This document shows positions 53,520 to 57,960 of a stretch of 64,000 bases of DNA, piece by piece. The DNA comes from Aerococcus viridans (GTDB lineage: Bacteria > Bacillota > Bacilli > Lactobacillales > Aerococcaceae). Below the pieces are notes generated by a model. The model worked only from the letters and a program-made list of their open reading frames with translations, did no database searches and was not told the DNA's origin. The stretch's first letter is position 1; every line of letters starts with the position of its first letter. The DNA lies in the NCBI RefSeq assembly GCF_002083135.2, contig NZ_NBTM02000001.1:1674001-1738000 (forward strand), read 5' to 3'. Made by a program: the position numbers and the translations under genes.

Positions 53520-55667
53520 ATGAAGTCATCTTACATTCAAATTATTAACCAAAGCTTACCATTTAATAAAAAGCAAATTGAAAATGTATTGGAATTGCTA
53601 GAAGAGGGCAATACCGTACCTTTTATCGCTCGTTATCGTAAGGAAGTTACGCAGTCATTAGACGAGGTTCAAATTAGAGAAATTGAACATGCTTACCAAT
53701 ATACGAAACAATTAGAGGAAAGAAAATCATCAGTTCTTGCAAATATTGAAGAACAAGGAAAATTAACAGATGATCTTGCTAAAAAAATTAAACAAGCGAC
53801 AATTTTACAAACGGTTGAAGACCTTTATGCGCCTTATAAACAAAAACGTCGTACAAAGGCAACCATTGCCAAAGAGAATGGTTTAGAAGATCTTGCCAAA
53901 TGGTTATTTTCATCACCAACTACAGGTAATGTTCAAGCGGAAGCTGAAAAATTCTTAAATGACGAAATAAAAGACACTAAAATGGCCTTGGATGGGGCAC
54001 ACGAAATTATGGCTGAATGGATTGCAGAAGATGCAGATATTCGTCTATGGTTACGTAAATATACATTAAAAGAAGGTAAATTAACCAGTCTAAAACGTAA
54101 AAATGCGGAAGATGAAAAAGCTATCTTCGAAATATATTACGATTTTAGCCAAAATATCCAAAACGTGAAACCCTATCAGACATTAGCAATTAACCGGGCT
54201 GAAAAGTTGAAGATTCTAAATGTTTCTATTGAGGCAGACGAGTTTCCAATTATTGAACATTTAGTTCATCGCTTCATTAAAGGTCACCCAGTGTCAACTC
54301 GCGAAATCCAAGCGGCTATTCAAGATTCATTAGATCGTTTCTTAAAACCTTCTATTGAAAGAGAATTGCGTTCTAAATTAACCGAAACAGCTGAGCAACA
54401 CGCTATTGCTACTTTTTCAACGAATTTGGGTAACTTGTTAATGCAACCACCATTGAAGGGACGCGTTGTTTTAGGTTTAGACCCAGCCTTTAGAACAGGT
54501 TGTAAGTTAGCTGTAGTGGATGCCACAGGTAAAGTTTTGGCTAAAGATGTGATTTATCCGCATGCACCAGTCAATAAAAAAGCTGAAGCCAGCAAAAAAT
54601 TCAATGAATTAATCAAAACTTACCAGGTAGAAATGGTTGCGATTGGTAACGGAACAGCAAGTCGTGAGTCTGAACAATTTGTTGCTGAACAAATCCAAGA
54701 TAATGACTTAGACTTGGTTTATAGCATTGTTAATGAAGCTGGTGCTTCAGTTTATTCAGCTAGTAAAATTGCCCGCGAAGAATTCCCTGACTATAACGTT
54801 GAAGAACGTTCAGCCGTATCTATCGCGCGTCGCTTGCAAGACCCATTAGCTGAATTGGTAAAAATTGAACCTAAAGCCATCGGTGTAGGTCAGTACCAGC
54901 ATGATGTGTCTCAAAAAGAACTTGCTGAAAGCTTAGATTTCACTGTTGAAACTGTGGTTAACCGGGTTGGAGTCAACTTAAATACAGCTTCTGCTTCATT
55001 ATTGAGCCATGTTGCTGGCTTATCGATGGCAGTTGCTAAAAATGTCGTTGAGTACCGAAATGAAAATGGTGTCTTTACTGATCGCAAGCAATTAGGTAAG
55101 GTAAAGCGTTTAGGACCTAAAACTTATGAACAAGCAGTTGGTTTCATCCGTATTACAGGGGGCGACAACATTTTAGACAATACAGGTATTCACCCTGAAA
55201 ATTATAAGGAAGTTAAGGCAATTCTGAAAGACTTAGGTATTTCTTTAGAAGAACTTCAAAGTGAAGAAGTCAGAAAAAAAATTGCCAATTTCAATTTAGA
55301 TGCCTTATCTCAATCATATGGTATTGGTAAAGAAACCTTAGTAGATATTCAAAAATCACTACTCACACCAGGGCGTGACCCACGTGAAGACGTTGCTGCG
55401 CCAATTTTAAGATCTGATGTTCTTTCATTGAAAGATTTAAAAGTAGGGATGAAATTACAAGGTACAGTGCGTAATGTTGTTGATTTTGGTGCCTTTGTCG
55501 ATGTTGGTGTTAAACAAGATGGTTTGGTTCATATTTCGAGAATGTCTACAAAATTCATAAGTAATCCAAGTGATATCGCTTCTGTAGGTGATATTGTTGA
55601 AGTTTGGGTATCTGAAGTAGACGAGAAAAAAGGTCGCATCGGTTTAAGCATGCTTGAAATTAAATAA
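53520..55667 (+). CDS. tex: Tex family RNA-binding transcription accessory protein
   Basis: 715 residues from ATG 53520 (AAAGGTG ahead); an upstream in-frame ATG at 53442 adds unconserved residues. N-terminal helical region with TVPFIARYRKEVTQSLDE, YqgF-like nuclease-fold part (GLDPAFRTGCKLAVVD), helix-hairpin-helix segment (NTASASLLSHVAGLSMAVAK) and C-terminal S1 domain (about 640-710, GTVRNVVDFGAFVDVGVKQD). It binds RNA and is linked to transcription and stress. Complete. Confidence 0.95.
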   Translation: MKSSYIQIINQSLPFNKKQIENVLELLEEGNTVPFIARYRKEVTQSLDEVQIREIEHAYQYTKQLEERKSSVLANIEEQGKLTDDLAKKIKQATILQTVEDLYAPYKQKRRTKATIAKENGLEDLAKWLFSSPTTGNVQAEAEKFLNDEIKDTKMALDGAHEIMAEWIAEDADIRLWLRKYTLKEGKLTSLKRKNAEDEKAIFEIYYDFSQNIQNVKPYQTLAINRAEKLKILNVSIEADEFPIIEHLVHRFIKGHPVSTREIQAAIQDSLDRFLKPSIERELRSKLTETAEQHAIATFSTNLGNLLMQPPLKGRVVLGLDPAFRTGCKLAVVDATGKVLAKDVIYPHAPVNKKAEASKKFNELIKTYQVEMVAIGNGTASRESEQFVAEQIQDNDLDLVYSIVNEAGASVYSASKIAREEFPDYNVEERSAVSIARRLQDPLAELVKIEPKAIGVGQYQHDVSQKELAESLDFTVETVVNRVGVNLNTASASLLSHVAGLSMAVAKNVVEYRNENGVFTDRKQLGKVKRLGPKTYEQAVGFIRITGGDNILDNTGIHPENYKEVKAILKDLGISLEELQSEEVRKKIANFNLDALSQSYGIGKETLVDIQKSLLTPGRDPREDVAAPILRSDVLSLKDLKVGMKLQGTVRNVVDFGAFVDVGVKQDGLVHISRMSTKFISNPSDIASVGDIVEVWVSEVDEKKGRIGLSMLEIK

Positions 55668-55711: not shown

Positions 55712-55739
55712 TTGATTATTCTATTTTATTTGTTATATT
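55712..55739 (+). promoter_or_regulatory. Promoter of the leucine leader/livJ transcript
   Basis: TTGATT, 16 bases, TATATT, then a start near 55746, about 23 bases before the leader peptide. Confidence 0.55.
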
Positions 55740-55768
55740 TAAATTAACTTAAAGAGAGGAAGGTAGAA

Positions 55769-55855
55769 ATGATGATGATTGTACATTTAAATATGCAAGC
55801 GGAATTTGTTTCTGCTTTCCCACATCAAAATTTATTATTATTATTAGCTAACTGA
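55769..55855 (+). CDS. Leucine-rich leader peptide (28 residues)
   Basis: A short frame behind GAGAGGAAGG, starting with three ATGs and ending FPHQNLLLLLAN-stop. Five TTA leucine codons in a row lie three codons before the stop, with one more Leu earlier and Ile-Val near the start. The next hairpin overlaps the stop codon. This is the form of attenuation leader peptides: ribosomes pausing at the Leu codons for lack of charged tRNA-Leu would change the folding downstream. It lies upstream of a branched-chain amino acid binding protein. Confidence 0.8.
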   Translation: MMMIVHLNMQAEFVSAFPHQNLLLLLAN

Positions 55856-55946
55856 GGATTCTACCATATATTGTAGAGTCCTATTTCTCGTGAGATACGG
55901 GCTCTTAGCTAAGACGCCGGCCCGTTTGAACGGGTCGGCGTTTTTT
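55855..55946 (+). promoter_or_regulatory. Transcription attenuator controlled by the leucine leader
   Basis: Stem 1: AGGATTCTAC (55855-55864) with GTAGAGTCCT (55873-55882). Terminator: ACGCCGGCCCG (55914-55924) with CGGGTCGGCGT (55931-55941), then TTTTTT. Alternatives: AGAGTCC (55875-55881) with GGGCTCT (55899-55905), and the palindrome TTAGCTAA, present at 55844-55851 inside the Leu-codon region and again at 55905-55912 next to the terminator. A ribosome stalled on the Leu codons would free or block these in a Leu-dependent way. The terminator is strong; the exact switching is inferred. Confidence 0.75.
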
Positions 55947-56028
55947 ATTTAGCTATGTTGTTGTATGTGGCTCTTGGGTTATGTTTGGGTTGTAGACAAT
56001 ATTTACAAATAGATGGGAGAAATATTTT

Positions 56029-57240
56029 ATGAAAAATATGAAATTTACTAAAATGCTAACAACTATCTTTGCGGCTTCTATTATAGTAGCTGGTTGCTCA
56101 CAAGTAACTACTGCCACTTCTAATAATTCAAATTCGTCATCCTCTTCAGAGGTGTCAACTAGCGATTCCGATACGGTAAATATTGGTGGACTTTGGGAAC
56201 TAACTGGTGCTACTGCGGCATATGGTGTGGTCCAAGATAATGCTGTCCAATTGGCCGTTGAACAACGGAATGAAGAAGGCGGGATTGATGGAAAAGAAGT
56301 GAGCTATCAATCATACGACAATCAAGGTACACCAGAAGAAGCTGCTACAGGTATGACTTATTTAATTGAGCAAGGCAATTCAGTCGTCCTTGGACCGGCT
56401 ACAGCGGCCTTAACTTTTGCTACCCAACCAGTGGCTGAAAATGCGCAAGTGCCATTTGTATCCGCAACGACAACAGTAGATAATGCAACCATTAACTCAG
56501 AAACGGGTGAGGTTTGGGAATACTTCTACCGGACAAGTTTTGAAATTTCTTTCCAAGGTGCTGCTATCGCTAAGTTTGCCAACCAAAATGGTTACGAAAC
56601 TGCCGCTGTATTGAAAGATAACTCGACTGATTATGGTCAAAACCTAACAGATATCTTTGTTGAAAACTTTGACGGTGACGTGATTATTGATGAATCATAT
56701 ATTTCTGGTGATACAGACTTCAGCTCAGTCCTAACAAATGTTAAATCTCAAAATCCTGATGTAATCTTTATTGCAGGTTACTACCAAGAAGCTGGTCCAA
56801 TCATAAAACAAGCCAGAGAAATGGGTATCGATATTGCGATTGTTGGTCCTAATGGTTTGGGTAACCAAAATATTGTCGAACTAGCAGGTGCTGAAAATAT
56901 GAGCAATGTCTATTACGTAGCCCATTTCGTATATGCAGAAGATGCTGAAAAAGATGTCCAAGACTTCTATAATGCCTATGTTGAAAAATTCGGTACTGAA
57001 CCGGATATGTTCTCTGCAGTAGCATATGACGCTGCAAATATGGTAATGGACGCGATTGATGCAGCCGATTCTACAGAACCAACAGCCGTCAAAGACGCTA
57101 TTGGCGCAACGGAAGAATTTGAAGGTATCGCTTATGATATTACCTTCGATGAAGAGCATAACGTATCTGCACCGGCTTATATTCAAGAAGTAGTTAACGG
57201 TGAACCAACCGAAAATGTTACAGTAATTCAACCAGAATAA
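56029..57240 (+). CDS. livJ: Branched-chain amino acid ABC transporter binding lipoprotein (LivJ type)
   Basis: 403 residues. Lipobox in IIVAGCSQ (Cys23), Ser/Asn-rich linker to about 48, then a type I periplasmic-binding fold: VNIGGLWELTGATAAYGVVQ, AVEQRNEEGGIDGKEV, DNSTDYGQNLTDIFVENF. It binds Leu/Ile/Val for a LivHMGF importer. Those genes, which normally follow livJ, are absent: 84 bases later comes the CBS-ACT gene that usually closes the operon in streptococci. Controlled by the leucine attenuator. Confidence 0.92.
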   Translation: MKNMKFTKMLTTIFAASIIVAGCSQVTTATSNNSNSSSSSEVSTSDSDTVNIGGLWELTGATAAYGVVQDNAVQLAVEQRNEEGGIDGKEVSYQSYDNQGTPEEAATGMTYLIEQGNSVVLGPATAALTFATQPVAENAQVPFVSATTTVDNATINSETGEVWEYFYRTSFEISFQGAAIAKFANQNGYETAAVLKDNSTDYGQNLTDIFVENFDGDVIIDESYISGDTDFSSVLTNVKSQNPDVIFIAGYYQEAGPIIKQAREMGIDIAIVGPNGLGNQNIVELAGAENMSNVYYVAHFVYAEDAEKDVQDFYNAYVEKFGTEPDMFSAVAYDAANMVMDAIDAADSTEPTAVKDAIGATEEFEGIAYDITFDEEHNVSAPAYIQEVVNGEPTENVTVIQPE

Positions 57241-57324: not shown

Positions 57325-57960
57325 ATGAAAATCAAACAATATATGAGTAAAGATGTGATCACTGTTTCACCGGAGACTTCTGTAACAGAAGCTGTGGCTA
57401 AAATGGAAAGTCACCAGATTCATAATCTGCCAGTTACAAGGAAAGGTCAATTTGTTGGGTTAATTACACAAGACATTATTGATGCAAAATCTGCTTCAGA
57501 CGCGACAAGTCTAAGTGTTTACGAATTAAACTACATTCTTTCTCAAGCTGATGTTGAAAAATTCATGGACAAGAAAGTAGCAACTGCCACTACTGAGTGG
57601 ATGGTAGAAGAAGCAGCGGAATATATGCGTGCGAATAACCTACGCGTTTTACCAATTGTTGATGAAAATAAAACAGTTCAAGGGATCGTAACTTATAAAG
57701 ATATCTTCAAAGCCTTAATTGACTTATCTGGTTATACACCAGGTGATAAAGGTAGCCGTATCGTCGTAAAAGTTGTCGAAGATAGAGTAGGGGTCCTTTC
57801 AGAAATTACTAAAGTCCTTGCTGACGCGAGTGTAAGTGTATCGCATATCTTTGTGAATGACGAAGATGGTATTGAAATTACAATTCAAGTTCATACTGGT
57901 CAAGGTGACAATGCTAAAGCAGCTATTGAAACTGCTGGTTATGAAGTTGTCACACTATAA
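57325..57960 (+). CDS. CBS-ACT domain protein (AcuB-like)
   Basis: 211 residues: two CBS repeats (about 1-60 and 75-130; MSKDVITVSPETSVTEAVAK and LRVLPIVDENKTVQGIV) and an ACT domain (about 145-211; VKVVEDRVGVLSEITKVLAD). Such proteins sense adenine nucleotides and amino acids. In streptococci a homologue follows livJHMGF, which suggests a role in branched-chain amino acid uptake or use. GGGAGGG precedes the ATG. Confidence 0.88.
   Translation: MKIKQYMSKDVITVSPETSVTEAVAKMESHQIHNLPVTRKGQFVGLITQDIIDAKSASDATSLSVYELNYILSQADVEKFMDKKVATATTEWMVEEAAEYMRANNLRVLPIVDENKTVQGIVTYKDIFKALIDLSGYTPGDKGSRIVVKVVEDRVGVLSEITKVLADASVSVSHIFVNDEDGIEITIQVHTGQGDNAKAAIETAGYEVVTL

Follow-up and report, generated by a model that had tools for sequence, protein, structure and literature searches.

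The question raised by this locus is whether, and through what arrangement of RNA, a short leucine-rich reading frame governs transcription of the livJ-type gene that follows it. Ribosome-mediated attenuation of branched-chain amino acid (BCAA) biosynthesis has been reported in S. aureus and L. monocytogenes and predicted in L. lactis, Streptococcus and Corynebacterium, as far as the available parts of these papers describe it (PMC5794164, PMC6123439, PMC5864092). For livJ, a literature search confined to open-licence papers, which gives weak evidence of absence, returned no title on leader-peptide attenuation. The livJ leader of E. coli, which precedes the same kind of gene, undergoes premature termination that is Rho-dependent. 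Here we analyse the leader in a 64,000-nucleotide stretch of Aerococcus viridans DNA (the window), where Leu-tRNA-dependent attenuation of livJ had been proposed (the original prediction). Its parts are the following.

55712..55739, + strand: promoter-like site TTGATT-16 nt-TATATT, with TG ahead of the second hexamer (motif search)
55754..55763, + strand: purine-rich tract GAGAGGAAGG, the likely ribosome-binding site of the leader ORF (sequence)
55769..55855, + strand: leader ORF MMMIVHLNMQAEFVSAFPHQNLLLLLAN, 28 codons (ORF call; C-terminal run kept in copies)
55832..55846, + strand: Leu control codons, TTA x5 (sequence)
55844..55851, + strand: segment 0, TTAGCTAA, overlapping the ORF end; partner 55905-55912 (covariation, cognate test)
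55855..55864, + strand: segment 1, AGGATTCTAC, from the last base of the stop codon; partner segment 2 (folds, cognate test)
55873..55882, + strand: segment 2, GTAGAGTCCT; partner segment 1, or segment 3 through 55875-55881 (folds, cognate test)
55897..55905, + strand: segment 3, ACGGGCTCT; partners segment 2 (55899-55905) or the terminator arm (55897-55903 with 55919-55925) (folds, cognate test)
55905..55912, + strand: 3' partner of segment 0, TTAGCTAA (fold, covariation)
55911..55946, + strand: intrinsic terminator (5' arm is segment 4; hairpin 55911-55944) and U-tract (terminator search, fold)
56029..57240, + strand: livJ-type branched-chain amino acid binding protein, the regulated gene (Pfam Peripla_BP_6)

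The leader peptide with its five TTA codons, the strong terminator and the downstream binding protein gene are thus all present as proposed. The predicted hairpin at the stop codon also exists (55855-55882); it was said to lie over the stop, but since it begins on the last base of that codon it is placed just after it. A short second hairpin sits between it and the terminator (within 55712-56028). Terminator-like sites number two against 0.3 expected, the second being the hairpin at 55855-55882 itself, and the 120-nt RNA that spans Leu codons and U-run has a folding energy of -48.5 kcal/mol, where shuffled sequences give -25.3 +/- 3.4 (z = -6.8; none of 200 as good). The frame closes GCT AAC TGA after the TTA run and, because it begins ATGATGATG, its real start codon may be 55769, 55772 or 55775. 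Promoter-like sites were seen five times against 2.1 expected in 461 bases scanned, so that the TTGATT-16-TATATT match is weak taken alone. The sequence TTTAGCTA past the terminator (55948-55955) was dropped as a part because it is absent from paralogous copies. A search of the window for CodY boxes gave 7 matches against 12.2 expected, the sole one near the leader overlapping the livJ start with three mismatches, and no CodY role is therefore claimed.

Nascent chains were folded with the RNA under the ribosome masked, free RNA being assumed to start 13-14 nt past the first base of the A-site codon. With the ribosome at Leu1-Leu4 and RNA made to 55928, segment 1 pairs with segment 2 (1:2, 55855-55864/55873-55882) and segment 3 with the terminator arm (3:4, 55897-55903/55919-55925), a pairing that takes up that arm. 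With the ribosome on the stop codon 2:3 forms and 3:4 does not, and with the A site on Leu5 early RNA prefers 2:3. The alternative pairings foreseen for this leader do, then, switch with ribosome position in these folds. Once the whole terminator has been transcribed it wins in every ribosome state, so the choice must fall during its transcription.

The window leader is in our view very probably a transcription attenuator in which the ribosome senses charged Leu-tRNA and segment 3 has three competing partners. When Leu-tRNA is scarce the ribosome would park on the Leu codons, leaving segment 1 free, and hairpin 1:2 would form; during the stall segment 3 would bind the terminator 5' arm, no terminator would arise and livJ would be transcribed (ON). 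With a ribosome at the stop codon, segment 2 would capture segment 3, the terminator would form and transcription would end (OFF). With no ribosome, segment 0 and the 3' side of segment 3 would pair, enclosing hairpin 1:2 and keeping segment 3 off the terminator arm, and termination would be favoured (OFF). The parts, pairings, conservation and spacing on which this scheme draws were established by computation; we infer ribosome stalling, the order of folding and leucine as the signal.

The same states were compared across leaders from other loci. Of 53 entered, 3 + 2 without a detected terminator were dropped, giving 48, a set that keeps L051, whose terminator arm is mis-assigned, and L103, whose control run is mis-assigned; near-copies (L073, L075, L077, L089, L092, L094, L098 and L101) and the divergent L071 were left out. 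In all 48 leaders the stall gave a stronger hairpin 1:2 than the stop position did, a result largely built in by the ribosome mask. In early RNA, 2:3 was stronger with the ribosome at the stop in 46/48 and 0:3 was stronger without a ribosome in 44/48. With the ribosome at the stop, late RNA lost more than one pair of 3:4 in only 29/48; in the remaining 19, 3:4 was still predicted at the stop in late RNA, or was weak in both states. For those 19, either folding kinetics must decide or the model fails.

Whether each segment is fitted to its own partners was assessed in 29 representative leaders, by comparing own with permuted segment combinations. Cognate pairings beat permuted ones for 1:2 (z -9.8), 2:3 (-5.2), 3:4 (-4.9) and 0:3 (-6.6), with 0/10000 permutations as good in each case. 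All four are cognate-specific in the 19 leaders outside the window's clade (0 or 1 of 10000). Within the 10 leaders of the clade 1:2, 2:3 and 0:3 reach 72, 41 and 57 of 10000, and 3:4 is there no better in cognate than in permuted combinations (z -0.6, 2788/10000). By computation, then, the folds and this test both give mutually exclusive hairpins set by ribosome position.

Covariation was counted on a 25-copy alignment that had not been fitted to structure. The 0:3 helix, which is formed by TTAGCTAA:TTAGCTAA, has 91.4% of its cells paired against 4 to 58% in slid registers, and three of its seven pairs show changes on both sides, as many being reached in 5/500 shuffles; its further pair types are not unusual in number, and the innermost pair fails in 10/25 copies. 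Compensation is seen where TTAGCTAA:TTAGCTAA is replaced by TTAGTTAA:TTAACTAA in L035/L041 and by TTAACTAA:TTGGTTAG in copies with isoleucine codons. For 1:2, 89.8% of cells are paired, with one double-change pair, no more than in shuffles of the same 25 copies, several rows of which look aligner-shifted. In distant members AAGCCC with GGGCUU-type pairings, occupying segment 3 itself, replace the 0:3 helix.

The repeat TTAGCTAA (55844-55851 and 55905-55912) had been put forward as a plausible switch. The pairing of its two copies does covary, but it looks like an OFF lock of the ribosome-free RNA and not like the main switch. The 5' strand of the helix reaches into the end of the ORF, so that a ribosome on the later control codons or the stop masks it, and we read 0:3 as a lock against leakage that would need the absence of any nearby ribosome to act. 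For the window RNA without a ribosome, 0:3 is present in early RNA with 6.3 expected pairs and is replaced in the late fold by 3:4 (8.6 pairs), so that such a lock would act early or not at all. In trp, ribosome release from the stop codon is reported to set a high basal level (PMC1183508, in the part available); by analogy a ribosome-free 0:3 lock would lower such a level, and a strand with three partners would be a simple remedy for leakage in RNA that a ribosome has left or never reached. The stretch between segments 2 and 3 (around GTCCTATTYYTCGTGA) is conserved beyond what pairing needs. We speculate that, with hairpin 1:2 just upstream, polymerase might pause there and give the ribosome time to catch up; NusG-dependent pausing is described as acting in a B. 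subtilis leader in the available text of one report (PMC6851288).

The window leader is no lone case. A DNA search found three more copies in the same genome, and a covariance model built from eight leaders found 25 strong copies (E <= 3.8e-10) in 5/15 genomes of the genus, five apiece, every one carrying a run of Leu or Ile codons just ahead of the stop; nine of the 15 genomes gave no match to the model. In the window genome the five precede the window livJ, two further livJ genes (the leader of one reads Leu, that of the other Ile), a thiolase gene and an SDR gene, while G009 has an extra livJ copy (L049) and lacks the SDR copy in its list. Downstream products of the 25 were checked with family models for the copies of the window genome, L044 and L050, and by tree for most livJ copies; the remainder were assigned by leader similarity. 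The window genome also has a weaker match (E 0.0012), a leader, MKSFKAANFNIVVIIVT, ahead of ilvB, which brings the genome to at least six leaders. Four other matches to the eight-leader model (E 0.04-0.07) comprise two antisense overlaps, the rejected L042 (G011) and a real ilvE leader (L064, in G009), where the ilvE frame found begins only at about residue 60 to 103 of ilvE models. Because first-look filters restricted the candidates scored to between 13 and 150 per genome, counts of genomes bearing the element are lower bounds. Among the five window orthologues, two have Ser in place of Leu at the fourth position of the run. Both the small frame and its Leu run are therefore conserved in relatives, where their absence was to have told against the original prediction, and the recurrence of ORF, run, switch and terminator before orthologues and paralogues lends its central proposal, Leu-tRNA-dependent attenuation of livJ, both comparative and computational support.

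The codon runs of these copies differ in phase on one and the same element. In the 19 Leu copies of the clade TTARYTWA starts at codon phase 0, which gives TTA TTA TTA as the repeat, with one TCA or CTT in some; in the five livJ2 copies it starts at phase 1, which gives ATT ATT ATT ATT ATT AAC TAA, with ATC first in one copy and TTG fourth in another. A frame moved by one base along the same (TTA)n-TTARYTWA element thus turns Leu codons into Ile codons, which, if the model holds, would offer the sensor a route to change its ligand with the switch unchanged. The third phase (Tyr, then UAG) was seen in none of the copies read. L049, which reads TTA TTA ATT ATT ATT AGC TAA (Leu-Leu-Ile-Ile-Ile), looks from its codons like an intermediate between Leu and Ile leaders. 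A tree of LivJ proteins was taken to stand in for one of the leaders. The Ile label, borne by livJ2, L049 and the distant L109, must change three times on it, at least two of these changes being forced by well-supported branches, and L049 falls beside livJ1; L109 is no case of a phase shift. Control runs of 50 leaders together hold 132 TTA and 67 ATT codons. TTA is the commonest Leu codon (48% in 36 window ORFs), so there is no rare-codon design. Outside the run the peptide has a pooled pN/pS of 0.68 by simple counting (1.12 for livJ1), weak constraint of the kind expected of a sacrificial peptide.

Leaders of this kind extend beyond the genus. With the first model they were found ahead of ilvE, of ilvD and, in three other genera, of livJ, the downstream genes being checked for L066, L071, L072, L103 and L080; among 17 further matches shown, L042 and L078 were read as ordinary palindromes, terminators or a T-box. 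A core model, R2, was built from 19 rows, most of which begin at the stop codon, so that it holds almost no coding sequence. It matched 73/295 genomes of the order at E <= 0.01, many of the weak matches being ordinary palindromes. R2 matches with a fetched locus were read, as was G000:931292 (L129); of 32 match loci, 21 look like true leaders, and 11 were rejected as ordinary palindromes, terminators or a T-box. Outside the family, 10 of the 11 matches at E < 1e-5 show, next to segment 1, a short ORF that closes with a branched-chain run, the exception being L120. These 10 precede three livJ-type genes, five PTS_EIIC_2 (PF13303) permeases, one cstA and the ORF of L117, for which no Pfam match was found at 1e-10. 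In 398 genomes drawn from the class, some of the same order and in a draw not confirmed to include S. aureus or Listeria, the five matches outside the order at E < 1e-4 were all ordinary palindromes on reading. A short, translated-looking ORF with a codon run for the sensed amino acid is thus common to the window leader, its copies and the distant leaders. On balance we lean towards regarding these leaders as an undescribed RNA family of Lactobacillales, in which segment 3 would have three partners, the gene would be ON only with a ribosome on the control codons and OFF with an absent or finishing one, and specificity would change by a one-base frame slide on an unchanged (UUA)n (phase 0 Leu, phase 1 Ile).

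Several other explanations have to be weighed. A leader peptide, competing hairpins and a terminator are also what a classical four-segment attenuator of the trp type would offer, in which the stalled ribosome covers segment 1 and 2:3 is the antiterminator. We consider this very unlikely here: by coordinates and folds, 2:3 (55875-55905) stops short of the terminator (55911-55944), and segment 1, which lies past the Leu codons, is left free by the ribosome up to Leu4. Another alternative is a two-state attenuator, in which 0:3 would play no part by itself and RNA that is not translated would be read through. The ribosome-free late fold gives 3:4 in the window and in many other leaders (mean 6.4 pairs over 48), as such a device would have it; the covariation of 0:3 in the clade and its cognate specificity over 29 leaders (z -6.6) speak against it, and we regard it as possible though doubtful.

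It is formally conceivable that the element is a T-box or another tRNA- or ligand-binding riboswitch, T-boxes being reported to regulate BCAA genes in B. subtilis in the available part of one source (PMC6123439). This is highly improbable given that a coding run stands at the stop codon in copy after copy and that Rfam gave no leader family at gathering score in the window leader and 25 other loci, returning two tRNAs only; a search of the leader at permissive E listed 14 weak matches, all under their gathering scores and none of them a T-box. Runs of at least four L, I or V near the C-terminus occur in 5/1169 short ORFs of the window, so that the Leu run by itself is weak proof, and an upstream ORF on the same strand ends at 55667, which would suit an ordinary terminator of that gene next to a chance ORF. 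Such a coincidence is scarcely credible for a module found ahead of several unlinked genes within a genome and again in other families. The preferred reading remains an attenuator with three partners for segment 3.

As modelled, the window leader works like a ribosome-mediated attenuator outside the four-segment layout, and it can be set beside known systems as far as the available parts of the cited papers describe them. In trp and his of enteric bacteria the position of the ribosome on the control codons likewise picks the hairpin, but in trp these codons lie inside segment I and a stall blocks I:II, whereas in the window they precede segment 1 and a stall would permit 1:2 (PMC1183508). The rli60/ilvD leader of Listeria monocytogenes shares a Gram-positive setting, a BCAA leader peptide, a terminator and alternative hairpins; it differs in having four segments with 2:3 as antiterminator, in contrast to the 3:4 antiterminator and three partners of segment 3 proposed here, and in serving biosynthesis and not uptake (PMC5864092). 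Loss of its start codon or ribosome-binding site is reported to cause super-attenuation (PMC5864092). The ilvD leader of S. aureus also has a short Ile/Leu-rich peptide, a terminator 52 nt past the stop and a response to Leu, although its proposed antiterminator, as described, binds the U tail and leaves the terminator stem intact, unlike that of the window (PMC5794164). His leader peptides before hisS paralogues of bacilli are, by their description, likewise Gram-positive and common to paralogues, and unlike the window leader they use His codons and precede aminoacyl-tRNA synthetase genes (PMC2965389). If our reading is true, Gram-positive leader-peptide attenuation reaches from BCAA biosynthesis to uptake.

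The genes behind the leaders are livJ, ilvE, ilvD, ilvB, thiolase, SDR, PTS_EIIC_2 permease and cstA genes. The first four fit the amino acid sensed; the fit is not obvious for the others, and if it is real it would tie to BCAA supply a thiolase whose neighbour is YtnP-like, an SDR whose neighbour is hydratase-like, PTS_EIIC_2 and cstA. In one locus (L131 3423-5625) a Leu leader precedes the thiolase gene together with a YtnP-like lactonase gene, the latter under the curated cut-off, and in another (L132 4614-6243) a Leu leader precedes the SDR gene with a weak HpaH-like hydratase match; we know of no tie of either gene pair to leucine. PTS_EIIC_2 (PF13303) permeases stand behind BCAA leaders in L112, L114, L115, L118, L121 and L123, which hints at a role for them in the traffic of BCAAs or related acids.

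The window livJ has no livHMGF behind it; a cluster in the order livJ3, Ile leader, livJ2, livJ and livHMGF-like genes is found at another place (L130), and the window livJ may accordingly be an orphan that serves distant permeases. In that cluster (L130 3000-11100) livJ3 is preceded by a Leu leader and separated from livJ2 by an Ile leader; the two leaders lie on one strand upstream of the livHMGF-like genes, arranged in series as if they were two chained amino-acid gates. The gene after the window livJ (57325-57960) encodes two CBS domains and an ACT domain. BCAA leaders also precede a BPD_transp_1 ABC permease gene and a CstA-family gene (L110 and L116), where peptide uptake is perhaps under BCAA control. 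Finally, a five-Ile leader (L079 1501-2652) precedes a gene of the bile acid:sodium symporter family, whose best NCBIfam match is PanS, below the cut-off.
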